Below, in pieces: positions 36,499 through 49,054 of a DNA stretch of 64,000 nt. The DNA comes from Bradyrhizobium prioriisuperbiae (GTDB taxonomy: Bacteria; Pseudomonadota; Alphaproteobacteria; Rhizobiales; Xanthobacteraceae): assembly GCF_032397745.1 (NCBI RefSeq), contig NZ_CP135921.1, positions 6,436,501 through 6,500,500 of the forward strand, given 5' to 3'. The position numbers and the translations under genes are program-made. Within the stretch, counting starts at the first letter, position 1, and every line of letters starts with the position of its first letter. The notes beneath the pieces were generated by a model. It worked only from the letters and a program-made list of their open reading frames with translations, made no database searches and had not been told where the DNA came from.

Positions 36499-37287
36499 AT
36501 GCAAGAATTGACGTCCATGTTTGATGTCGGCAGCGTGACCCATGCCGGCCGAGTGCGGGAGCGCAACGAGGATTCGTGCCTGGTGCGCACCAATGTCGGC
36601 CTCTGGGCGGTGGCCGATGGCATGGGCGGCCATGAGGCCGGCGACGTGGCAAGCCGGATCGTGGTCCAGTCGCTGGATGCCATTGGCGAACCGGCCTCGG
36701 CCGCCGATCTGCTGGCCCAGTGCGAGAACCAGATCTTCAACGCCAATCAGCAGATCTTGGCGCTGAGCCGCACGCGCCGTGGTGCTGTGATCGGCACCAC
36801 GGCAGCGGTCCTGCTGATCCGCGACGAGCATTATGCCTGTGTCTGGGCGGGTGACAGCCGGGTGTACCTGATCAAGCAGGCGGCGATCAGCCAGATTTCC
36901 CGCGACCACACTGAAGTTGAGGATCTGGTGGCCGGCGGGACGCTGTCGCGCGACGAGGTGCGCAACTGGCCCAACAATGTCATCACCCGCGCTGTCGGCG
37001 TGGCGAAAGACCCGGAGCTGGAGGTTGTGATCGGCCCCGCCGAGCCCGGCGACATCTTCGTGGTCTGCAGCGATGGCCTGACCAAGCATCTGCAGGATGA
37101 GGAAATCCTGCAATGGGTGACGACACGCCACGCCCAGGCGTCCTGCGACGCGATGCTTGAACTGGCGCTGGAGCGGGGAGGTCTGGACAACGTCACGATC
37201 ATCGTCGTTCGGCTGCAGCCGCCGGTGCGGACCTCATCGGAGCCGACGCAATCGCCCTTTACCGGCCGGCCGGAGCTGAGGTCATGA
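36499..37287 (+). CDS. pppA: T6SS serine/threonine phosphatase PppA
   Basis: 262 residues of the PP2C fold. Metal-binding and catalytic motifs are all present: HAGRVRERNEDS (~15-26), ADGMGGHEAGD (~39-49), VWAGDSRVYL, CSDGLTKHL and the final DNVTIIVVRL. It removes the phosphate placed on the FHA protein by PpkA and so resets the secretion switch. The start is weakly supported; an ATG six codons later (MFDVGSV) is an alternative. The stop overlaps ppkA (ATGA). Confidence 0.94.
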   Translation: MQELTSMFDVGSVTHAGRVRERNEDSCLVRTNVGLWAVADGMGGHEAGDVASRIVVQSLDAIGEPASAADLLAQCENQIFNANQQILALSRTRRGAVIGTTAAVLLIRDEHYACVWAGDSRVYLIKQAAISQISRDHTEVEDLVAGGTLSRDEVRNWPNNVITRAVGVAKDPELEVVIGPAEPGDIFVVCSDGLTKHLQDEEILQWVTTRHAQASCDAMLELALERGGLDNVTIIVVRLQPPVRTSSEPTQSPFTGRPELRS

Positions 37288-39140
37288 GCCCGAACGAGCC
37301 ATTCCGGTCGAGCTATCGCGGCGTCCCAGCGGGGACGCGCCTCAACGGCATCTACGAGATCGACGAGATGATCGGTGCCGGCGGTATGGGCGAAGTCTAC
37401 AAGTGCCGCGAAATCCAGACCGGCGCGCCCATCGCGATCAAGATGCTGCTGCCGGACATGGCGGAGAACGAAGCCGCGCTGGCGTTGTTCCGGCGCGAAG
37501 CGGCTGCGCTGCATAACCTGCCGCACGAGGCCATTGTCCGTTACTTCCTGTTCACGGTCGAGCCGGTTCTGCAGCGTCCGTATCTGGCGATGGAGTTCGT
37601 CGATGGACGTTCCCTGTCAGATATCCTGGCGGAAGGCCCGCTGACGTTCGAGGCGATGGTCAAGCTGATGCGACGTGTCGCGTCGGGGCTGCAGGCCGCT
37701 CACGAGCGCGGGATCATTCATCGCGACGTGTCGCCTGACAACATCATCATTCCCCTGGGCGACGTGACGCGCGCCAAGATTATCGATTTCGGCATCGCGC
37801 GCTCGACCCAGGTGGGCGACAAGACGATCATCGGCAACGGATTCGCCGGCAAGGACAATTACGTTTCTCCCGAGCAGGTTGGCCTGTTCAACAACGATGT
37901 CACAGCGAAATCCGATATCTACAGTCTCGGCCTGGTGCTGTTCCACGTTCTGACCGGACAGAAGCTCGACATGGGCGGAAGCCAGTATCAGCTGGTGGAA
38001 AAGCGCCGGCGTGTGCCCGATCTCGGAGCGATCGACATGCGCATCCGGCCGTTGCTGGAGCAGATGCTGCAGCCCGATCCGGCGCAGCGGCCGGCGTCGA
38101 TGGCCGACATCGCCAACTGGACCATTGGCAGTCCGCGCAGCTTCAATCCAATGGCGGCTCCCGACGCCGCGGCGGCTCAGCCAGCTGCGCCATCCCAGCC
38201 GGTTCTTGCGCGCATTCTCGGCAATCGTGGCGTCCGGCTTGGCGCAGCAGTCGTCGGTGTCGCGGCCCTGCTGGGGCTAGGCGGCTACGGATTTTACGAG
38301 TTTGTCTGGTCGACACCGCCGGCTGCGATTCCGCCGCCATCGCCGGTGTTTGGCCAGACCACGCCGCCGGCCAAGACCGACACCAAATCCGACACGACCA
38401 AGACTGCAACCAAGTCCGATGGCAAATCTGACGCCAAGTCCGAAACCAAGCCGGAGACCAAGTCCAACCCGGCCGTGGTGAAGTCGCCACCACCGGTCAC
38501 GCCACCGAGCGGCGATCTGGCCGGTCGTCCCGATCGCATCCGCAAATATGTCGAGCAGTACGATGGCGGCGACTGCTTCTTCATCCTGCCGGTGGCAGTG
38601 ACGCAGAGCGCGGCGGTGATCGAAGGATTCGGTGCATCGACGGTGCCGTTCGATACGTTCGATCGGGCTTTCAAGCGCGATCAGGGGTTTGAGGCGACCG
38701 TCGGCGTTCGGCAGGTGACGCAGGCCCAGTGCCCGGCGGTCAAGTTTCTGAGTCAGCTCGGCAGCCAGGCCAGGGCCCCTCGGATCAATCTGACCTCGAC
38801 CGAACTCAAGAGCGGTGAAACGCTGAATGGCACCATCGAAAATTTCGCCAACCGCGTTGTCGAGCTGTTGCTGGTGTCGGATCGGGGCGAGGTGCAGAGC
38901 CTGTCGTATCTTTTGAAACAGGGGACGGATTCGCTGTCGTTTTCGATCGGCGGACAGCGCGGGGGCAGCGGCAGTGGTCCGCAGCTCCTGATGGCGGTGA
39001 CCACGCCGCGGGTACTGGATTCCCTGCGGCAGCCACGGCCGCTCGCGGCCGACATGTTTTTCCTGCAGGCCTTGAGCGAGGCCCAGCGCAACAACGTGAC
39101 CATGGCGACGTCGGCGCGGTATTTCCAGATCAAGAACTGA
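37284..39140 (+). CDS. ppkA: T6SS serine/threonine kinase PpkA
   Basis: 618 residues. The N-terminal Hanks-type kinase domain (~20-275) has a glycine loop GAGGMGEVYKC, catalytic loop HRDVSPDN (~146) and DFG in IIDFGIARS. A Lys/Ser/Thr/Asp-rich repeat linker surrounds the region after a single membrane helix (~315-340). The periplasmic C-terminal part (~415-618) includes VEQYDGGDCFFILPVAV. PpkA phosphorylates the FHA protein and probably senses an envelope signal. The catalytic loop has Ser where most eukaryotic-type kinases have Lys, a form seen in other PpkA-like proteins. Confidence 0.93.
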   Translation: MSPNEPFRSSYRGVPAGTRLNGIYEIDEMIGAGGMGEVYKCREIQTGAPIAIKMLLPDMAENEAALALFRREAAALHNLPHEAIVRYFLFTVEPVLQRPYLAMEFVDGRSLSDILAEGPLTFEAMVKLMRRVASGLQAAHERGIIHRDVSPDNIIIPLGDVTRAKIIDFGIARSTQVGDKTIIGNGFAGKDNYVSPEQVGLFNNDVTAKSDIYSLGLVLFHVLTGQKLDMGGSQYQLVEKRRRVPDLGAIDMRIRPLLEQMLQPDPAQRPASMADIANWTIGSPRSFNPMAAPDAAAAQPAAPSQPVLARILGNRGVRLGAAVVGVAALLGLGGYGFYEFVWSTPPAAIPPPSPVFGQTTPPAKTDTKSDTTKTATKSDGKSDAKSETKPETKSNPAVVKSPPPVTPPSGDLAGRPDRIRKYVEQYDGGDCFFILPVAVTQSAAVIEGFGASTVPFDTFDRAFKRDQGFEATVGVRQVTQAQCPAVKFLSQLGSQARAPRINLTSTELKSGETLNGTIENFANRVVELLLVSDRGEVQSLSYLLKQGTDSLSFSIGGQRGGSGSGPQLLMAVTTPRVLDSLRQPRPLAADMFFLQALSEAQRNNVTMATSARYFQIKN

Positions 39141-39198: not shown

Positions 39199-40212
39199 TC
39201 AGAATTTGCCGATGATCAGGATATTCAGGTCGCGATCGGGTTTGAAATCGGCGGCCGTGAATTCAGTGGCCGCCGGAGAGGCAGCTTTCAGCGGGCCGGC
39301 ACAGAAGCTGATCAGGCGATCGCCGCCGCCTGCATCGATGGTCAATTTGAAAGACTTGATCGGGCCGGCCCAGTTGGCGCCGGTCTTCAGCACGTAGCTG
39401 ATGCGCCGTTCCTGCAGCATCGCGACATTGCCTTCGCCGGTTCCGGCGCGCTTGTCGAGCTCGGCCAGGAAGGCATCGGAAATGCAGTAGTCCTTGCGAT
39501 AGCGTTTGATCTCCGAAGCCAAGCCTTGGCTGCCGCGGAGCGGGGCGCGCAGGATGGTGTCGGGCGCGGAGCCGACGCTTGGATGGTACTGGTGCTCGAC
39601 CACGGTCTTGCGATCCGCCGGAAAGGTTTGCTGGCGGACGGCGGACGTCTTGGTGGTCCAGGCGGCCGCGTATTGCTCGTGACCTTTTTGGTCGAGATTT
39701 CCGTTCGGCAACACCAGCTTCTCGGCCAGCAGTTGGCTGCGGGCGGCGGCCGGCAGGTTGTCGAGCGGAATTTCGAGGTCTCCGACGGGCAGCAGCGACA
39801 GCTTGAGCTGGTTGAGCAGAGTGGTGAAGTCCTTGTCGCCGACCATCGCCCGCTGATCCATGGTGAACTGGACCGGACTGCCGTCGACTTTGGTTTCAAA
39901 GCCGACAAAGTTGGTTCGATCGTTGCTCGGCAACACCAGGCTGTCCGCGTCGGTAAGATCGATGTCGGGCAGCGGGAAGGCCACCGTCAGCGTGACGGGC
40001 TTGCCGGAGGTATTGGCGAACAGGTAACGGACGCTCACACGATCGAGGGAGATGCGCAGATCCTCGCTCTCCATCGCAACGTCTTTGGTCTGAACGAACT
40101 GCAGGCCGCCGATCGAGAGTTCAGCGCTGGAATCGTTGGCGCAGGCCGGCGCCGTGGCTGCCAGCAAGGTTGCTGCCGTGACGATAAAATGGCGATATTT
40201 CAATGTCTTCAT
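39199..40212 (-). CDS. DUF4424 family exported protein
   Basis: 337 residues with a clear Sec signal peptide (cut near APACA-ND). The mature part matches the DUF4424 pattern: SAELSIGGLQFVQTKDVAME, then VSVRYLFANTSGKPVTLTVA and FPLPDID, with a beta-rich end. The family has no known function. It is convergent with ppkA (58-base gap) and probably co-transcribed with the small gene upstream. It is one of several exported proteins in this stretch. Confidence 0.75.
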   Translation of the reverse strand: MKTLKYRHFIVTAATLLAATAPACANDSSAELSIGGLQFVQTKDVAMESEDLRISLDRVSVRYLFANTSGKPVTLTVAFPLPDIDLTDADSLVLPSNDRTNFVGFETKVDGSPVQFTMDQRAMVGDKDFTTLLNQLKLSLLPVGDLEIPLDNLPAAARSQLLAEKLVLPNGNLDQKGHEQYAAAWTTKTSAVRQQTFPADRKTVVEHQYHPSVGSAPDTILRAPLRGSQGLASEIKRYRKDYCISDAFLAELDKRAGTGEGNVAMLQERRISYVLKTGANWAGPIKSFKLTIDAGGGDRLISFCAGPLKAASPAATEFTAADFKPDRDLNILIIGKF

Positions 40213-40710: not shown

Positions 40711-42441
40711 ATGCTTCGTCAAAATTGGTTGGCCTGGACGCTTCTGCTTGGATGTGCCGGCATTGTTACAAGCCCGGCACTCGCCGACGACGTCGTGGTC
40801 CGGACGTTCTCCAGCGGAACGACAGCGAACACGGTCGGCATTGTCGATGCCAGTGAAGACGTTGAACTCGCAGGCCCCCAGGCGTTGACCTCCGACGGCC
40901 AGGGCAGCCTGTTCCTGCTTGACCAGATCAACGGACGGATCCTGCAATTCGATCCCAAGCAGCCGACCAACGAGCCTGATGTCCTGAGCATGCCCGCCGA
41001 CGTCCAGCCGACCGACCTGATCGTCCGCAACGACAGCATCATGGTCTGGGACGGTTCGGTCCGGACGCTGAAGGCGGCCGGCGACACCTCGACCCGCAGC
41101 ATTGGCGGCAAGACTATTCAGCTCGAGGAAGTCACGACGCGCGACGTGGGAGATCCGTTCGCCACGTCGGCGTTCTCGCAAATGGGATCGCAGCCGCCGA
41201 GCAGCGCCGCCGAATTACTCGATCAGGGCACCCGCGCCGCCATCGTCAAGACCACCCGGCAGCCCGATCGCCAGTACGTGTCATCCCGTGGCAAGGGATC
41301 GGTGACCGCCGACGTTCTCCCCGACAAGGGCGACAACAGCGTCCGTGTCGAAGTGCGCACCATGACCACCGATGAGACGATCGCCCAGCTCGAGCTGAAA
41401 GTACGCAACCAGCTTGGGACGGTGGAGTTTCTCGAGATCGACAACAGCGACCGGTTCTACGTGCTGGGTGAGGATATTTCCAAGTCGACGAAAGGCGCCA
41501 TCACCTTCGTTGCGCGATATGCGGCCAACGGCAAGCTCGAGGGTGTCTACGAACTGCCGCTGGAGAACACGCCGCTGACGCGGCGCTTCGTCACCATCTC
41601 TGGTGACGGCGACGTTTATTTCCTGCGGACCAAGGACGACGGCGTCGACGTGGTGGGGGTCGGTTTCCGTCCGCTGCGCAGTGCCTCGATCATCGATATT
41701 CGCCCCAAGAAGATCGCAACGAAGACGCCGTCGGCCACGCCGAGCGGAAAATTCAGCGCGGTTGCGGCGGTGCGGCCCTCGAACCGCCAGCAGGCGATCG
41801 AGACCGCTTTCGCTTTCGAGGGTATCCAGTGGAAACTGACGCCTGCGAATTACGGCGCCGATCCGGACAGCGCCTGCAGCGGTTTCAGCCGGATTCGGCG
41901 TCCCTGGTATTTGCAGGGCAAGGTCAATCAGGAGGTGCGCGGCGTGCCTTATTGCTGGGGCTGTCACGGTTCGCTGGCCAACTTCCGGCAGCGGATCGAT
42001 GCCGGAACCATGGCCGGCAACGTCTGCACCCGCAACAATCCGCGAACCGATGTCGCCGGCGTCGACTGCTCGGCCTTCGTCAGCGCGACCTGGGGATTGT
42101 CGGTTCACTACACCACGGCGGCGATCCCGGCGATCGCCAAGCCGGTCGAGAATCCATGGGACCTGAAACCGGGAGACGCGCTGAACAAGCCGGGTTCCCA
42201 TGTCATGCTGTTCCTGCGCTTCACGCCGGACCGCAAGGCCGAGGTGATGGAAGCGTCGACCGGCGGATGCAATGGGCGCGTGTGCCGCAATGTCTATCCG
42301 CTCGCCGGATTGCTGGCGCGGGGCTACGCACCGGTCCGCTTCAAGGCATTTGCCGATGACCAGATGGTGGTTTCGACCAATGCCTATCAAGATACCGGGC
42401 CGACCGGGCGCGCCAAGAAGCAGGGCAGTCAAAAACGGTGA
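40711..42441 (+). CDS. Exported protein with propeller-like N-terminus and NlpC/P60-like C-terminus
   Basis: 576 residues from the ATG at MLRQNWLAWTLLLG, chosen for the signal peptide (cleavage near ALA-DD) and the GAGGCGAAC site. Residues ~30-350 contain repeats of the form 'LTSDGQGSLFLLDQINGRIL', as in NHL/SMP-30-like propellers. Residues ~390-560 hold several cysteines and a Cys-His peptidase pattern: VDCSAF with C453 and GSHVMLF with H497. This resembles NlpC/P60 or CHAP cell-wall amidases. It is probably periplasmic. It could act on peptidoglycan or a peptide; the assignment of the catalytic domain is moderate. Confidence 0.6.
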   Translation: MLRQNWLAWTLLLGCAGIVTSPALADDVVVRTFSSGTTANTVGIVDASEDVELAGPQALTSDGQGSLFLLDQINGRILQFDPKQPTNEPDVLSMPADVQPTDLIVRNDSIMVWDGSVRTLKAAGDTSTRSIGGKTIQLEEVTTRDVGDPFATSAFSQMGSQPPSSAAELLDQGTRAAIVKTTRQPDRQYVSSRGKGSVTADVLPDKGDNSVRVEVRTMTTDETIAQLELKVRNQLGTVEFLEIDNSDRFYVLGEDISKSTKGAITFVARYAANGKLEGVYELPLENTPLTRRFVTISGDGDVYFLRTKDDGVDVVGVGFRPLRSASIIDIRPKKIATKTPSATPSGKFSAVAAVRPSNRQQAIETAFAFEGIQWKLTPANYGADPDSACSGFSRIRRPWYLQGKVNQEVRGVPYCWGCHGSLANFRQRIDAGTMAGNVCTRNNPRTDVAGVDCSAFVSATWGLSVHYTTAAIPAIAKPVENPWDLKPGDALNKPGSHVMLFLRFTPDRKAEVMEASTGGCNGRVCRNVYPLAGLLARGYAPVRFKAFADDQMVVSTNAYQDTGPTGRAKKQGSQKR

Positions 42442-42529
42442 ACCTGCAAAGGCATGGGTGAGACTGATGGGTATCGAGCGACGATGGTTTGAATGCGTCG
42501 AGCAACGCAACTTGTTGAGGTGGTCGGCC

Positions 42530-44266
42530 ATGCCCACGCTGGGGAAGGTGTTTCGAATTGCCGCGCTGGTTGCGGTTTCGGGTCTTGCCGCTCTGGGTCC
42601 GCGTGGCGCGCTGGCCGCCAGCGAATTCACCATCAACAATCCCGCCGGCGGCGAGGTGCGGGCCTTCGTGGTCGGGGTCGACGACTATCAGTATGTTCGC
42701 AAGCTGAAGGGGGCGGTGGCGGATGCCCGCGACCTGACATCGACGCTGAAGGAACTGGGCGTTCGCGACGTGATCTCGCTGATCGATGCCAAGGCCGACC
42801 GCGCGACGGTGGTGCGGGAGATCAGCGCGCTGGTCGAGCGGACCAAGCCCAACGACCTGATCTTCCTGTCGATCGCCGGACACGGCACCCAGGAGCCGGA
42901 GCGCATCAAGGGATCGGAACCTGACGGCATGGAGAATGTGTTCCTGCTGCCCGGTTTCGAGCCGACTGCAACCGGATCGCAGCAGCGCGTTCTCGGTGGC
43001 GAATTCAACCATTTCATCAAGCAGTTCGAATTGCGCGGGGCAAAGGTGATCTTTGTCGCCGATACCTGCCACGGCGGCGGCATGGCGCGGGACATCGATC
43101 CGCGCGCCAGTGAGATGAGTTTCCGCCAGGTTCCGAAGTACACGCTGCTGGTCGATACGCTGAAGCCGGTCGGCGACAAAAGCGATCCCCGGTCGGAGCT
43201 GGACTTCGACCACACCGCCTTTCTGGCGGCGGTCGATCGCAGCACAAAGGCGCCGGAGGTTCGCATCCCCGGTGTCGAGGGCCTGCGCGGCGCGCTGAGC
43301 TACGCCGTTGCCCGTGCGATGGAGGGAAGCGCGGACGCCAACCGTGACGGCAAGGTGACGCTCAAGGAACTGTTCGCCAACGTTCGCCAGGTGGTCTACC
43401 AGCTCTCCGACCAGCGCCAGAATGTGGTGACGATGTCGTCGCCGAACCTGTCGCCGGAGACCGACGTGGCTTTCGGGCTGACACGCGGGGTGGTGTTGAT
43501 CCAGGGTGCCAATCCGTCGACCGACAGCGGCAAGAGCGTGGTGCCGGCGAACGTTCCGGCCACGGGAGCGCCGACCACCGCCACTGCGCCGGCGACGCCT
43601 TCGCCAGCCACCAGCAGCGCCACTGCATCGCCGCGGATCAGCACCCCGATCCGGCTGGCGGCGCTCGACGGAAAAACCAGTTATTTCCCCAATCTGAAAT
43701 CGCGCGACACCGCGATCGAAGCGGTGCAGCCCACCGACAATCCCGACCTGATCTGGGATCCGACATCGCGCGATGTCATCGCCTGGGGTGATGTGATCGC
43801 TTACGGAGTCGATGTCGCTGATTTGTCGACGGTGGTGGACCGGACCGCGGCAATTCGCGAACTCAAGCGCATGGCGACGCAATCGCCGCAGCTGATGCGA
43901 GTCTCTCCGGACGACCGGCAGCACCGCAACGACCAGACCGTCGAGATCGATCTGTCCGACGTGGCGTCGCGGGCCGTGGTGCTGTTCAATGTATCCGGCG
44001 ACGGCACCATCCAGATGCTGTATCCGATCGGCTCCGACGCGACACCGGCGCAGTCCGCCAACCTGAAGCTGCCGCTGCGTGTGCGCGAACCGTTTGGTGC
44101 GGAACAGATCGTCGCCGTGACGTCGCAGCAGCGAATGGTCGACCTGGAAAAGGTGTTGCTGCAGTTGAATCGCCGCCGTGCTCCCGGCCAGGTGATCAAG
44201 AGCCTGGAGCGCTATGCGCCGCCGGATGCCCGCATTGGATCGATCGGATTTTTCACCGTTCCCTAA
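42530..44266 (+). CDS. Exported caspase-like (C14) protease with DUF4384-like tail
   Basis: 578 residues from the ATG with GAGGTGG upstream; signal peptide cut near ALAAS. The caspase p20 domain (~residues 45-300) has VVGVDDYQYVRKLKGAVADA, the catalytic His in SIAGHGTQ (H118) and the catalytic Cys in VADTCHGGG (C180), so the dyad is complete. The C-terminal ~200 residues show the DUF4384 pattern, with a strand series around VLFNVSGDGTIQMLYPIGSD. It is 88 bases after the NlpC-like gene and 20 before the DUF4384 gene, forming one likely operon. Confidence 0.82.
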   Translation: MPTLGKVFRIAALVAVSGLAALGPRGALAASEFTINNPAGGEVRAFVVGVDDYQYVRKLKGAVADARDLTSTLKELGVRDVISLIDAKADRATVVREISALVERTKPNDLIFLSIAGHGTQEPERIKGSEPDGMENVFLLPGFEPTATGSQQRVLGGEFNHFIKQFELRGAKVIFVADTCHGGGMARDIDPRASEMSFRQVPKYTLLVDTLKPVGDKSDPRSELDFDHTAFLAAVDRSTKAPEVRIPGVEGLRGALSYAVARAMEGSADANRDGKVTLKELFANVRQVVYQLSDQRQNVVTMSSPNLSPETDVAFGLTRGVVLIQGANPSTDSGKSVVPANVPATGAPTTATAPATPSPATSSATASPRISTPIRLAALDGKTSYFPNLKSRDTAIEAVQPTDNPDLIWDPTSRDVIAWGDVIAYGVDVADLSTVVDRTAAIRELKRMATQSPQLMRVSPDDRQHRNDQTVEIDLSDVASRAVVLFNVSGDGTIQMLYPIGSDATPAQSANLKLPLRVREPFGAEQIVAVTSQQRMVDLEKVLLQLNRRRAPGQVIKSLERYAPPDARIGSIGFFTVP

Positions 44267-44286
44267 GCTTTGTCGATGAGGCTGTG

Positions 44287-44847
44287 ATGCGCTTGTTCCG
44301 GCCGGTTGGCGTTGTTTCATTCTGCCTGGCTGTGACGGCAAGTGCAGTCGCTTGGGCCCAGAATGCAAATCCGGCGAGCGTGACGCTGCGGATGATGCCG
44401 GAAAAGTCCGTTGATATCGGGACCAAGGTGTCGTTCCGCGTATCGACGAAAAAAGCCGGCTATCTCTTGTTGTTGGACGTCGATGCCGACGGCAAGATGT
44501 CGCAAATTTTCCCGAGCCCTGAATTGCTGGCGCGGTCCGCCGGCAAGGATATCAATTTCGTCAAGGCCGGGGATGAACTGCAGGTACCCACTGCCGCAGC
44601 CAAACAGCAGGGGTTCGAGTATGTCATCACGCCACCAACCGGCACCGCCACCGTTGTTGCCATCCTGAGCGAGCGGCGGGTGCAGATTCTGGACTTGCCC
44701 GACTTGCCGAAAAAGCTGCAGACACAGGCGGACGCCGTCACCTATTTGGCGACCTGGACCAGCGAGCTGCGGATTCCGGATTCGGACAGCGGAAAGCTGC
44801 TGCAGAACAGCTGGTCGTTCGACGTCAAGCAGTATTCGATCCAGTAA
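44287..44847 (+). CDS. Exported DUF4384 protein
   Basis: 186 residues with a signal peptide (cut near VAWAQ-NA). It is almost entirely a DUF4384-like domain: VSFRVSTKKAGYLLLLDVD, GKMSQIFPSPE and a VVAILSERRVQILDLP segment. It shares this domain with the C-terminus of the protease just upstream. That suggests they bind the same partner or form a complex in the periplasm. A GTG one codon earlier is an alternative start. It is convergent with the second caspase-like gene. Confidence 0.75.
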   Translation: MRLFRPVGVVSFCLAVTASAVAWAQNANPASVTLRMMPEKSVDIGTKVSFRVSTKKAGYLLLLDVDADGKMSQIFPSPELLARSAGKDINFVKAGDELQVPTAAAKQQGFEYVITPPTGTATVVAILSERRVQILDLPDLPKKLQTQADAVTYLATWTSELRIPDSDSGKLLQNSWSFDVKQYSIQ

Positions 44848-44906
44848 GTGAGGACATTCGGTGCGCGGTAGATCCCCAGCCGCTGCTCGAGCCGATTCGT
44901 GCCGCT

Positions 44907-46841
44907 CTACCGCGAGTTGGCAAGGCTCTCGCGCAGCCGCAAAACCTGGGGCCGCAAGTGTTCGCAGGCGAGTTCGCGCTCGAAGCGGACGACGTCGTCG
45001 CGCGATGAGCTGCTGCGCAGGCGCGCCAGTGTCGCCCGATCGCGTTCGCACGATTGCTCCGGCGACAGGGCAGGTGAGGCCGGTTGTTTGATGTCGACCT
45101 GGCGGGACGAACTGTCGCCGGTGGCGGTGGCCTGATCCGCCGGCCCAAGGCTTTCGCGCAGCCGTGCGATTTGCCGACGCAACCGATCACAGCGCAGCTC
45201 ACGTTCGAAGGTGATGACATCGGCCAGCGACGGATTGGCGCGGAGCTTGGCAAGGCGGGCCTCGTCCTGCTTGCAGGCCGGCCCCTGGTCGACCGCTATC
45301 GCGGGTGGAACGGGCTGCGCAGCAGGCAGGCTGTTGAGGTTGGCCTGTTGCTCCGGCGGCTTTGGCGGCTCGGGGCGGGGCTGAACAGCGGCGGGTGGTG
45401 GCGGGGGCCGGATTGGTTCGGCGCTGGCTGATGCAGCCGAAGGCAGGGCGGCGGGTCCGAGGCTTTCCCGCAACCTGACAACCTGAGGACGCAGCCGCTC
45501 GCATCCGAGTTCACGCTCGAACTGGGTGATCTCATTCAGTGTTGGATTGCTGCGCAGACGGGTCAGCCGGGCATTGTCCTGCTCGCACGACTGCGTCGAC
45601 GAGACCGGAGGCGGCAAAGGCGGTGTGACGACCGGGTCGATCCTGGCTTCCGGTCTTGTTTCCGGAGCTTTCAGGTCCTGTCGTTCGACCGCGGCAACCT
45701 GCTGTCGGGCATTTGGCCGAGGCGGATCCGGGGCGAGGGCCGGGGGATCGAGCCGGGCGGTTTGATTGCGCCGCTGCTCGTCCTGCAGGCGTTGCGCGGC
45801 CTCGCGTTCGGCGCGCGCACGTTCGGATTCGGCGGCTTTCGCGCGCGCCTCGTCCTGTCTGCGCTGCTCCTCCAGGATGCGTGCGGCGTCCTGTTGTCGG
45901 GCCTGCTGCAGCTGCCGCTCCTGCGCCTGCAGCTCGATGCGCTGGATCCGGTAGCGCGCATCGGTGACGAAGCTCGACGATGGAAATTTGGTGATGAAGT
46001 CGCGCAGTGCCGCCGGGTCCGCGGCCTCCTTGACGTCATCAAAGGCGATCCGGTCGGTCTGATTCAGATAGTAGTCGCTCAGCAGCGACACATAGGTTTC
46101 GGGCCGCTGCCGTCCACCGGTCTCGGAGTTGACGTCGGCGGCGACGCGCCGAAACAGTTGTTCGATCTCCAGCCCCGGTTCCTTGATGCGCTTCAGGAAC
46201 GCGCGGGTGAACGGGCTGTTGCGGCCGCGTCCGTCGGCAGCGACTTCGTCCGCTGCGGTGGAATAGGCGATCACCATGCCCTGGGTCTTGTCGATCCGGG
46301 CCAGCCCGCGACTGCCGCCGCCGAAATTGCGGGTTTCGCCGCTGGCGCGGCGGCGGATCGATTCGACAATGGGATTGTTCCGGCAGGCATCCAGGATCAT
46401 GACCTTGACGCCGGTGGCGCGGTCGAGCGCCGCGCGGACGTCGTCGATCGGCATCAGCTGATAACGCAGGCTGATCTCGTCCTCGACCTCGGCGTCAGTC
46501 GGAATCAGATAGTTGCGTCCCTGGTACTGCAACGCGTGACCTGCGTAGAAAAACAGCGCGGCATCGGAATCCGTCGCCTGGCGGGCGAACTTCGCCATCG
46601 CCAGATCCATGTCGCGTTTGTTGGCGTCGGTCGCCTGCAACACTTCGAAGCCGACACCGCGCAGCGCGGCGGCGACGTCCTCGGCATCGTTCTTGGGATT
46701 GGACAGTGCAAGGCTCGGATTGCCGTAGTGGGCATTGCCGATCACGAGCGCGATCCGCCGCTCAGCGCGCACATCACCAATGGCGCCGAGCGTCAGCACG
46801 GCACACAGCACGGCAATCCAGGCCGACGAACGCTTGCTCAT
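44907..46841 (-). CDS. Exported caspase-like (C14) protease with three Cys-paired repeats
   Basis: 644 residues. Signal peptide 1-26 (GDVRA-ER). The caspase p20 domain starts RRIALVIGNAHYG, with catalytic His in FYAGHALQ (H102) and Cys in LDACRNNP (C153). A charged Gln/Arg/Glu coiled coil covers ~300-360. The C-terminal part has three ~45-residue repeats at ~417-463, 521-567 and 596-642 joined by proline-rich linkers. Each has two cysteines exactly 28 residues apart (419/447, 523/551, 598/626), likely disulfides. A GGAG site precedes the ATG. Orthocaspases cleave after Arg/Lys; the target is unknown. Confidence 0.85.
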   Translation of the reverse strand: MSKRSSAWIAVLCAVLTLGAIGDVRAERRIALVIGNAHYGNPSLALSNPKNDAEDVAAALRGVGFEVLQATDANKRDMDLAMAKFARQATDSDAALFFYAGHALQYQGRNYLIPTDAEVEDEISLRYQLMPIDDVRAALDRATGVKVMILDACRNNPIVESIRRRASGETRNFGGGSRGLARIDKTQGMVIAYSTAADEVAADGRGRNSPFTRAFLKRIKEPGLEIEQLFRRVAADVNSETGGRQRPETYVSLLSDYYLNQTDRIAFDDVKEAADPAALRDFITKFPSSSFVTDARYRIQRIELQAQERQLQQARQQDAARILEEQRRQDEARAKAAESERARAEREAAQRLQDEQRRNQTARLDPPALAPDPPRPNARQQVAAVERQDLKAPETRPEARIDPVVTPPLPPPVSSTQSCEQDNARLTRLRSNPTLNEITQFERELGCERLRPQVVRLRESLGPAALPSAASASAEPIRPPPPPAAVQPRPEPPKPPEQQANLNSLPAAQPVPPAIAVDQGPACKQDEARLAKLRANPSLADVITFERELRCDRLRRQIARLRESLGPADQATATGDSSSRQVDIKQPASPALSPEQSCERDRATLARLRSSSSRDDVVRFERELACEHLRPQVLRLRESLANSR

Positions 46842-46874
46842 GCTAGTCTCCGGATGCTCCGGATTGCATGCGGC

Positions 46875-47804
46875 TCAATCGTAACGGTACTTCCAGCGAA
46901 ATCTCCTCTTCTTCTTGGCTGGCTTTGGTTTCTTGCCGCTTGCCGTCACCGTCACTTCGATCGGTGCCGAATAGATCGGCGGTTCGTGGGCGATGTGGTT
47001 CTCGTCCGCGAGCAGCAACTGCAATTTGTGCCGGCCCGGTGTCAGCGTCACCTTGGCTTCGGTCTGGCCAGCCCCAAAATGCAGATGGTTGAAGTCGTTC
47101 GGGATCGGTTGATCGAAGGGCGGCAACTCCGCGTCGACCAGCAGGTGGTGATGGCCGGTGTTGACCTTCTCGAAGCCAGCCGGTGCGACGCCCATTCCGA
47201 TCAGGCCGAAGCGGATGACTGGATTTGGCGTCACATAAGCGCCGTCAGTGGGATACACGAAATAGACTTTCGCACCCGGCGGCGATGTATGGCGACCGCC
47301 CCGCGCCCCAGCGGGGGCCTGCGCAGCCGCCGGCGCTGTTGCACCGTCGACGACACGAACGCGGATGCGCTCGGAGATCACCGGGGGCGAATTCGGAATG
47401 TGCCCCTTGTCGCCCAGCAGGAGTTGCAGTGTGTGATCGCCGGGCGGAAGCGTCACTTCAGCCTCGGTCTGGCCGGCGCCATAGTGCAGATGATTGAAGT
47501 CGTTGGGGATGGGTTGGTCCATCGGCGGCGGATCGGTGTCGATCAGCAGATGATGATGCCCGGAATTTTCCTTATCGGAGCCCGCCGGCGCGACGCCCAT
47601 GCCCCTGAGACCGAAATGCACCGTGAACTTGGTCGGAACGGTCTGGCCGTCCTTGAGATCGATGAAATAGACTGTGGCTCCCGCGGGCGACGGCGAGGGG
47701 CCTCCTTGGGCATTTTGTGCATTGGCGCTCCCGAGCGATCCGACAAGAATCAGGAGCGAGACCGAACTCGCGGCCACTGCGTTTGAGAACAAGAGCTCCT
47801 CCAT
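46875..47804 (-). CDS. Exported protein with tandem DUF4399 domains
   Basis: 309 residues: a signal peptide (to about SANAQ), then two copies of a ~105-residue DUF4399 unit (~40-148 and ~170-285) and a basic Lys/Arg tail. Each unit has V-YF-DG, FGL-GMGVAPAG, a GHHHLL histidine cluster, IPNDFNHLH-GAGQTEA and a LQLLL-D--H-- segment. The histidine-rich motif suggests metal binding, which is an inference. It lies 33 bases upstream of the caspase-like gene on the same strand, so they are probably one transcript. Confidence 0.78.
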   Translation of the reverse strand: MEELLFSNAVAASSVSLLILVGSLGSANAQNAQGGPSPSPAGATVYFIDLKDGQTVPTKFTVHFGLRGMGVAPAGSDKENSGHHHLLIDTDPPPMDQPIPNDFNHLHYGAGQTEAEVTLPPGDHTLQLLLGDKGHIPNSPPVISERIRVRVVDGATAPAAAQAPAGARGGRHTSPPGAKVYFVYPTDGAYVTPNPVIRFGLIGMGVAPAGFEKVNTGHHHLLVDAELPPFDQPIPNDFNHLHFGAGQTEAKVTLTPGRHKLQLLLADENHIAHEPPIYSAPIEVTVTASGKKPKPAKKKRRFRWKYRYD

Positions 47805-48154
47805 AAGAATAGTGGCGCGCGGCTAAAGCCAATCGCCCAAATACTTTAAGGACCTGGTCCCTCGCAGGTATGAAAATGATACACTGGATTTATGCGAATG
47901 AATACGTTGTCGACTGGGGACGTCACCGATGATTGATAGTCCCGGTCAATCGACGGATATCGGCGTCATGGCGCAGGCTCTAATCATACAAACGGTTGAT
48001 TGTTGAGGGTATTAAATTACCTCAAAGGAATTTGAACCTATTTGCGGATTCCTCATCTCCCTTCAATGCATGCGACTTTTTGATTTCCACCCACGATCGC
48101 TGGCGGCATACATAGTGCCTCGATCGGGATGAGAGTCACGTCGATAGGAATGAA
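47805..48154. other. AT-richer intergenic region, no gene seen
   Basis: A 350-base spacer between the divergent DUF4399 and FGE-fold genes. It is visibly lower in GC than its surroundings, especially at 47990-48060, so it probably holds both promoters. No clear -35/-10 pair, operator or RNA structure was identified. Confidence 0.5.
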
Positions 48155-49054
48155 ATGATCAGGGCTTTGGTTCTTGTTGCAGTGTTGTTCGCGACCAGCG
48201 GAGTGGCTGCTCCGCTGCTCGGTCCGAGGCTTGATGTCCGAGCGCCTGTTCCGGACAGCATCGATTTGACTGCCGGTGCACCAGCGCAACGCAATGGCGT
48301 GATCCTGATCCAGGCCCAGTCGGCTACAGCGCCTGAGCCGGGCGAGACGTTCAACGATTGCCCGGACTGTCCGGAAATGGTGGTGGTCCCATCGGGCGAT
48401 TTTGAAATGGGCAGCCGCGACTCTCCGTTTGAAGCCCCGCCGCACAAGGTCACCATCGGCAACCCGTTCGCCATTGCCCGACGTGAAACCACGTTCGCCG
48501 AATGGGATGCCTGCGTCGCTGGAGGCGGCTGCAAGTATCGGCCCGACGATCACGGCTGGGGCCGCGGCAACCAGCCAGTGATCGACGTGAGTTGGGAAGA
48601 CGCCAAGGCCTTCGCAGCGTGGCTGAGCCGGAAGACCGGGCGGAAGTATCGCCTGCCGAGCGAGGCGGAATGGGAATACGCCGCCCGGGCCGGGACCACC
48701 TCGAAATTCTGGTGGGGCAAGGATGTCGGAAAGTCCAACGCGAATTGTGATGGGTGCGGCGACCTGCCGATCCGCAAGACGACGCCGGTCGGATCGTTCC
48801 GGCCGAACGGGTTTGGCCTCTACGACACGTCTGGGAATGCCTACGAGTGGGTGGAAGATTGCTGGAACGACAATTTCGGCAAGGCGCCCAAGGACGGTGC
48901 CGCCTGGACCACCGGGCAATGCGGCCAGCGCGTCCTGCGCGGCGGCTCGTTCGTCAACAAGTTCACGGCGGCGACGTCGTCGGCGCGCTTCCGTTACGAT
49001 ATCGACGTTCGCTATTATGCCAACGGATTTCGCGTGCTGCGCGATCTGCAGTGA
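48155..49054 (+). CDS. Exported FGE/SUMF1-fold protein lacking the catalytic cysteines
   Basis: 299 residues with a signal peptide (cut near GVAA-PL). The mature part has the sulfatase-modifying-factor fold: VVVPSGDFEMGS, then PVIDVSWEDAKAFAAWLSRK, YRLPSEAEWEYAARAG, GLYDTSGNAYEWVEDCW and RVLRGGSF. In true formylglycine-generating enzymes two cysteines follow the GGSF region; here it reads VNKFTAATSSAR, with none. It is therefore likely a binding or structural member of the family. Such domains are often found with caspase-like proteases, two of which are nearby. Confidence 0.85.
   Translation: MIRALVLVAVLFATSGVAAPLLGPRLDVRAPVPDSIDLTAGAPAQRNGVILIQAQSATAPEPGETFNDCPDCPEMVVVPSGDFEMGSRDSPFEAPPHKVTIGNPFAIARRETTFAEWDACVAGGGCKYRPDDHGWGRGNQPVIDVSWEDAKAFAAWLSRKTGRKYRLPSEAEWEYAARAGTTSKFWWGKDVGKSNANCDGCGDLPIRKTTPVGSFRPNGFGLYDTSGNAYEWVEDCWNDNFGKAPKDGAAWTTGQCGQRVLRGGSFVNKFTAATSSARFRYDIDVRYYANGFRVLRDLQ

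Follow-up and report, generated by a model that had tools for sequence, protein, structure and literature searches.

The locus and its genes

The 64,000-nucleotide stretch analysed here (the window; contig NZ_CP135921.1, positions 6,436,501 to 6,500,500 of the forward strand) comes from the 9.08 Mb, single-contig genome of Bradyrhizobium prioriisuperbiae. Six genes at 40711-49054, here called A to F, adjoin the tagF-pppA-ppkA end of a type VI secretion system (T6SS) cluster and include two intact caspases, B and D, that are predicted to be exported. Comparison with related genomes makes it very probable that a conserved, T6SS-linked periplasmic protease module exists. An earlier note on this DNA had described a six-gene cluster of caspases and partner proteins beside the T6SS switch genes, a description confirmed by coordinates, Pfam matches and the ppkA neighbourhood. 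The T6SS cluster (about 14342-39140) is followed by a DUF4424 gene, a small gene and then A to F:

A, 40711-42441, + strand: predicted exported protein with a propeller-like N-terminal part and an NlpC/P60-like C-terminal part (both weak)
B, 42530-44266, + strand: predicted exported caspase that has an EF-hand-like loop and ends in a DUF4384-like domain; Pfam C14 1.7e-13 (51.2 bits; cut-off 21.4)
C, 44287-44847, + strand: predicted exported DUF4384 protein; Pfam DUF4384 1.3e-19 (70.5 bits; cut-off 27)
D, 46841-44907, - strand: predicted exported caspase from a different subfamily (motifs AGHA / DACRN); Pfam C14 3.5e-42 (145.1 bits; cut-off 21.4)
E, 47804-46875, - strand: double DUF4399 protein with a weak signal peptide; Pfam DUF4399 x2 2.6e-73
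F, 48155-49054, + strand: predicted exported FGE-fold protein; Pfam FGE-sulfatase 1.9e-53, plus PDB sequence matches
PpkA-type kinase, 37284-39140, + strand: Pfam kinase; transmembrane segment at about residues 319-337
Exported DUF4424 protein, 39199-40212, - strand: Pfam E 5.3e-103; adjoins A in many T6SS-linked loci
T6SS cluster, 14342-37287: tssH, tssG, tssF, tssE, hcp, tssC, tssB, tssA, vgrG, fha, tssK, tssL-ompA, tssM, tagF, pppA (Pfam/NCBIfam)

Three T6SS genes of the window are presumably tssB, tssE and tssK, taken as such from their place in the usual cluster order rather than from a scan, and the phosphatase match of pppA lies under its NCBIfam cut-off. The strands of A to F (+ + + - - +) are mixed, which rules out a single operon.

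Signal peptides, called with a purpose-made heuristic rather than SignalP, are clear for A, B, C, D and F and weak for E, whose start has a hydrophobic stretch and an A-x-A motif, yet a net negative charge. The earlier claim of Sec signal peptides on all six proteins therefore stands for five. As a control, 16 of 17 other window proteins gave no call, with ExoIII a weak false one. The view that two exported orthocaspases are unusual does not survive, since the genome holds 12 C14 genes and six of the seven others evaluated have signal-peptide-like starts (with the best start chosen, and three of the ten others left out). The sole further DUF4384 match in the genome (G000:C1:8402624-8402851; L142) lies in a 775-residue frame that has CxxCH motifs and whose start resembles a signal peptide.

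Recurrence with one T6SS subtype

A contig scan with B as query returned 30 loci, in which B is present by construction; the nearest named ones are from Bradyrhizobium. A, B and C stand together in all 30, and PpkA lies within 10 kb in 25 (L044-L066, L069 and L073), being missing from the flank in L067 (a 6.6 kb contig), L068, L070, L071 and L072. The spacing of A and B reaches 1.3 to 3.9 kb in L068-L071, with at least one further gene between them; in these four Bradyrhizobium loci B is also preceded by an OmpA gene, and C is followed by a gene that has a single hydrophobic stretch and lacks Pfam matches (L070 12466-13254, and likewise in L068, L069 and L071). D is present at 58% identity or more in two loci (L044 and L067), and D-like caspases of 31-41% identity occur in 24 of the 28 others. 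E is kept in L044, L075 and L077. In Bradyrhizobium sp. U87765, C and D are separated by a 738-residue frame (L044 12445-14661).

TssC was found in 26 of the 27 searchable genomes of these loci, the one miss being a metagenome draft. Among 100 relatives, 14 have TssC, and the three with long, strong matches to B (E <1e-80) are all T6SS positive. B occurs in seven and TssC in 23 of 248 genomes of the family, with both in six (the exception, G230, is 89% complete), while for the order, Hyphomicrobiales, the corresponding figures among 397 genomes are 12 with A, 69 with TssC and ten with both, G425 and G541 being the exceptions. Hypergeometric p values are 2e-6 for B and TssC in the family (0.005 by genus) and 7e-7 for A and TssC in the order (4e-5 by genus), and because the genomes are related these values overstate independence. 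The co-occurrence with T6SS genes that the earlier note had anticipated thus lies above the base rate in both samples. A adjoins T6SS genes in seven of the 12 A-positive order genomes (G000, G278, G408, G497, G531, G573 and G598; L046 is assigned to G278 on the strength of identical TssC coordinates), and A-positive G546 is too fragmented to place A relative to the T6SS.

By sequence comparison, the cluster is found repeatedly alongside a single T6SS subtype in Hyphomicrobiales. TssC proteins 77-100% identical to that of the window come from 12 loci (the window, G255, G296, G023, G180, G128, G083 and five genomes of family f28), and a module gene is present in 11 of them, the twelfth, G083, being an 11.7 kb contig. 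In a TssC tree these 12 are not separated from G082 (59% identity); a TssF tree with eight of the 12 does separate them, with support 100/99. No module gene was seen in four other T6SS stretches, L079, L082 (4.5 kb), L087 and L088, where TssC is 39-59% identical.

Gene order varies within this subtype. G255 repeats the window (PpkA-DUF4424-A-B-C-D-E-F), and G296 has A-B-C, tssA, D-E-F and vgrG. Judged by the 30 B loci, D-E-F could pass for chance neighbours, a reading that other T6SS loci overturn. The earlier expectation that the genes are kept together therefore holds for A-B-C and, near T6SS genes, for all six genes in L044, G255, G296 and the window itself, and does not extend to E and F as core members. 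G023 has A-B-C on one contig and D on another, next to PpkA and close to the end. C also has a long form, trypsin-(pseudo)caspase-DUF4384, which stands near PpkA in G128, where no A was seen within the stretch examined.

In f28 genomes, DUF4424-A adjoins T6SS genes in G598, G573 and G497 and, in G546, lies on a contig that has none; A adjoins vgrG in G408 and is near tssK in G531. The long form and a D-type caspase are near PpkA in G598, G408 and G573 and together on a PpkA-less contig in G546, and the long form alone is found near PpkA in G531, where the stretch ends, and between tssB and tssA in G497. A gene for a TPR-methyltransferase fusion directly precedes DUF4424-A in two loci (L104 13307-14737 and L102 11206-12729), and the same fusion type lies downstream of tssH in L086 (8720-10153).

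A second arrangement, which we call T6SS-free-type, runs OmpA-DUF4384, B, trypsin-caspase-DUF4384, serpin and kinase in G082, G642 and G541; G425 lacks the serpin, and its kinase gene comes straight after the long form. A Tad-like set (FHA, two T2SSF-type genes and one T2SSE-type gene) adjoins the module kinase in G541, by Pfam, and in G425, by BLAST (L112 13751-17998 and L127 13309-18965). The D-type caspase of G541 adjoins two FGE-type genes (BLAST 30-36% to F) about 20 kb from the module kinase (L129 17043-20000). Among more distant relatives of B, an OmpA-type gene precedes B and a second caspase follows it in G064, G094 and G095, G068 has an OmpA fragment before B, and G069 has a second caspase; Pfam was run on G094 and on the second caspase of G064 only. 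Other distant B-type caspase genes (L041, L042 and L035) lie near an apparent nucleotide cyclase and a cyclic-nucleotide-binding protein, as read from sequence starts.

Protein A as marker of the module

Protein A is the most specific marker of the module. Its profile matches in PDB are to NHL-type propellers, mostly designed repeat proteins, and to PknD, and Pfam NHL is reported weakly in eight of 22 A members (best E 0.0083). Pfam NlpC/P60 (PF00877) appears in two of the 22, under its cut-off (best E 0.23), and the A of the window has no Pfam match of any kind. Both parts of the earlier propeller/NlpC-like assignment are weak. Residues D452, C453 and H497, which may represent an NlpC-like Asp-Cys and His, are invariant in the alignment (22/22). 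A search of a large protein set with A gave 1106 proteins at E <=1e-10 among 8000 candidates; in the best 120 of these, the named ones are nearly all 'hypothetical'.

A tree of the 22 A proteins, which omits G082 (an overlong frame), separates those of the T6SS-free-type loci G425, G541 and G642 from the rest by a 100/100 branch. The A of G180, a genome of family f1, groups among the f28 proteins, which suggests transfer of the locus.

An intact protease on a DUF4384-type protein

B and D share with orthocaspases and metacaspases (C14) the common p20-type domain, the His-Cys dyad and an Asp two residues before the Cys; they differ from usual C14 proteins in their predicted export and their place in a T6SS locus, and B in its DUF4384-like domain. 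The dyad of B (His118/Cys180, numbered from the ATG at 42530) is invariant in 18 of 18 aligned sequences, as are the first Asp and last Glu of its EF-hand-like loop, DxNxDGxVxxxE (window 43334-43369), and B also has metacaspase profile matches. The D dyad is intact in 10/10 (window, L044, L075, L077, L081, L084 and L130-L133); T6SS genes lie alongside D in nine of these ten stretches, and L133 is on a contig without them. In G255, B is spread over two reading frames (L075 3330-5028), with the caspase and DUF4384-like parts separate, either a natural split or a sequencing error.

The earlier description of B as a caspase-DUF4384 protein holds for the caspase, which exceeds the Pfam cut-off. Neither the B C-terminus nor the PpkA ectodomain has a Pfam DUF4384 (PF14326) match, and both are related to that family by profile comparison only, hence the term DUF4384-like. 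With hhalign, whose E-values throughout are those of single pair comparisons, the B C-terminus matches C at probability 55 and E 1.2e-4; its only match in PDB (E 0.74) is a chance one.

C shares 43% identity with the DUF4384 end of the long form in G082 and occupies the same position after B. Lacking both the caspase and the trypsin domain in the window, C is probably a remnant of a caspase-DUF4384 or trypsin-caspase-DUF4384 protein. C or the long form is present in all 12 A-positive genomes, and the full-length long form in ten of the 397 order genomes, all A positive. All 11 long forms have the trypsin His and Ser motifs, while ten of the 11 have lost one or both dyad residues of the fused caspase. 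In an alignment of 15 second caspases, His and Cys are kept in G094, G064, G069, G095 and G541, Gln and Cys stand in their place in G082, G425 and G642, and Gln with Thr, Ser or Val in G497, G531, G128, G598, G408, G573 and G546, all of them TssC-positive genomes.

The long forms of f28 and G128, from T6SS loci or T6SS genomes, thus have a dead caspase and an intact trypsin (7/7), and B has been seen in f28 only without its caspase domain (G497 and G573). We read these long forms as a protease swap, with trypsin in place of caspase. Trypsin cuts after Arg/Lys. Every T6SS-linked version except G180 has an intact, presumed Arg/Lys protease on a DUF4384-type protein, namely caspase B in most of f1 and trypsin in f28 and G128, and the pairing of intact trypsin with dead caspase suggests that it is Arg/Lys cutting that is conserved, rather than the caspase fold. 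For the cutting specificity of orthocaspases we follow PMC6426788. That paper also describes alphaproteobacterial proteins consisting of trypsin, a QC (Gln for His) pseudo-orthocaspase and DUF4384, the architecture of our long form, and reports that DUF4384 often co-occurs with N-terminal kinase domains. Those proteins are described singly, in a paper where 'type VI secretion' occurs 0 times; the T6SS-linked long forms differ from them in also lacking the Cys, and window C in lacking trypsin and caspase alike.

Links to the kinase PpkA

The periplasmic domain of PpkA resembles the C-terminal domain of B. A profile of its last 230 residues (14 sequences) matches one of the last 200 residues of B (14 sequences) at probability 89 and E 2.3e-6; a control comparison against A gave probability 0.2 and E 0.3. 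In the T6SS-free-type loci, the kinase C-terminus (3 sequences) matches F (4 sequences) over 82 columns at probability 95 and E 1.8e-8. TagR has an FGE-like fold, and F likewise is a predicted exported FGE-fold protein of a T6SS locus with ppkA.

Envelope proteins that act on the periplasmic side of PpkA have precedents that vary by species. In the accessible parts of the respective papers, RtkS binds the PpkA periplasmic domain and a TagR model is given (PMC6082577), and TagQRST and TssW appear as PpkA inputs (PMC10482370 and PMC12607579). No protease is named among PpkA inputs in those parts. Breakdown of periplasmic ExoR in Agrobacterium, as outlined in the same portion of PMC10482370, frees a sensor kinase and raises T6SS expression; ExoR-ChvG/ChvI is a two-component system acting on expression, whereas here we propose a caspase module acting on PpkA. 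No paper joining orthocaspases to T6SS or PpkA was found among the matches listed, which cover titles, abstract starts and term counts in CC0, CC BY and CC BY-SA literature.

Proposed role and alternatives

The earlier term, an envelope proteolytic system, fits the evidence. Damage sensing and self-protection, both named in the same place, may be among its roles; for effector processing nothing was seen, and effector or immunity genes were not searched for. We consider it an even chance that the module acts on the input side of PpkA. Related DUF4384-like domains would serve for docking and so place the protease at C and PpkA, and A and F would sense or bind the envelope. Metacaspases are Ca2+-dependent, and because B has an EF-hand-like loop the trigger, an envelope disturbance, would perhaps be Ca2+ entry. 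B and D would then cut after Arg/Lys in the periplasm, and cutting would change PpkA input and, through it, Fha phosphorylation and T6SS assembly. OmpA-DUF4384 and trypsin-caspase-DUF4384 fusions among relatives support such a scheme.

More tentatively, and at rather less than even chances, an Arg/Lys-cutting protease anchored to a transmembrane Ser/Thr kinase via DUF4384-type domains may represent an undescribed class of envelope signal relay that gates a secretion machine. With the same reserve, such a relay would use a caspase in one lineage, trypsin in another and a serpin as brake in a third, and it would gate a T6SS in most lineages seen and perhaps the Tad-like machine in family f11.

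Several observations weigh against input to PpkA through this module, beside the relatedness of the genomes sampled. The PpkA ectodomain matches the C family weakly (probability 11, E 0.0027), the FGE match in the T6SS-free kinase is below the Pfam cut-off (E 0.0058) or unreported, and the DUF4384 of the long form scores 21.8 bits in G497 (cut-off 27) and is not reported by Pfam in G531. In G180 the order is DUF4424-A-D-type caspase-PppA-PpkA, and neither B nor C was seen. E and F occur in few loci (one of the 30 selected by B, L044). The Lys-rich PpkA linker, considered as a protease substrate, is confined to the window sequence and was ruled out, leaving a cutting site there unsupported. Finally, the module occurs without TssC in G425 and G541 and on contigs apart from the T6SS in G082 and G642, where the T6SS is elsewhere in the genome, and distant relatives of B are found in six genomes without TssC (G064, G068, G069, G094, G095 and G096).

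Wall remodelling, although rather unlikely, is the alternative that survives best. A would be a hydrolase that lets the membrane complex through the wall, B and D would act on A or on other proteins of the envelope, maturing or removing them, and PpkA would be a mere neighbour. The invariant NlpC-like residues of A and the OmpA-domain partner in relatives favour it, as does TagX of Acinetobacter, a wall hydrolase reported to be required for T6SS biogenesis (PMC5061870); A would parallel TagX as a candidate wall hydrolase encoded at a T6SS locus, and has the propeller-like part in addition. This account leaves unexplained why the PpkA periplasmic domain resembles B and why F resembles a kinase end, and it has to contend with the weak Pfam NlpC assignment of A and with A in two TssC-less genomes.

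The exceptions in G425, G541, G082, G642 and the six genomes with distant B would also suit a passenger: the envelope module would be independent, sitting in the same genomic island as the T6SS but functionally unconnected with it. We regard this as unlikely, since A adjoins T6SS genes not only in the seven order genomes but also in G296 and G180, outside that sample, remains beside T6SS genes in G408 and G497 where gene order has been re-shuffled, and, in its T6SS-type loci, forms one side of the 100/100 branch. Least probable is self-protection or quality control, in which the exported proteases would degrade damaged envelope proteins or periplasmic effectors, be they incoming or stray: two intact caspases, plus trypsin and serpin in relatives, do resemble a controlled degradative set, but in the loci read the module genes are mostly closer to the kinase than vgrG is, with G296 and the A gene of G408 as exceptions.

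How T6SS kinases sense envelope events has been worked out for few species, and the PpkA inputs described so far, as far as the available parts of the cited papers go, are binding proteins. A proteolytic input, if true, would be a different logic, in which caspase and trypsin would be interchangeable parts, and it would give both DUF4384 and the exported caspases of rhizobia a testable role.

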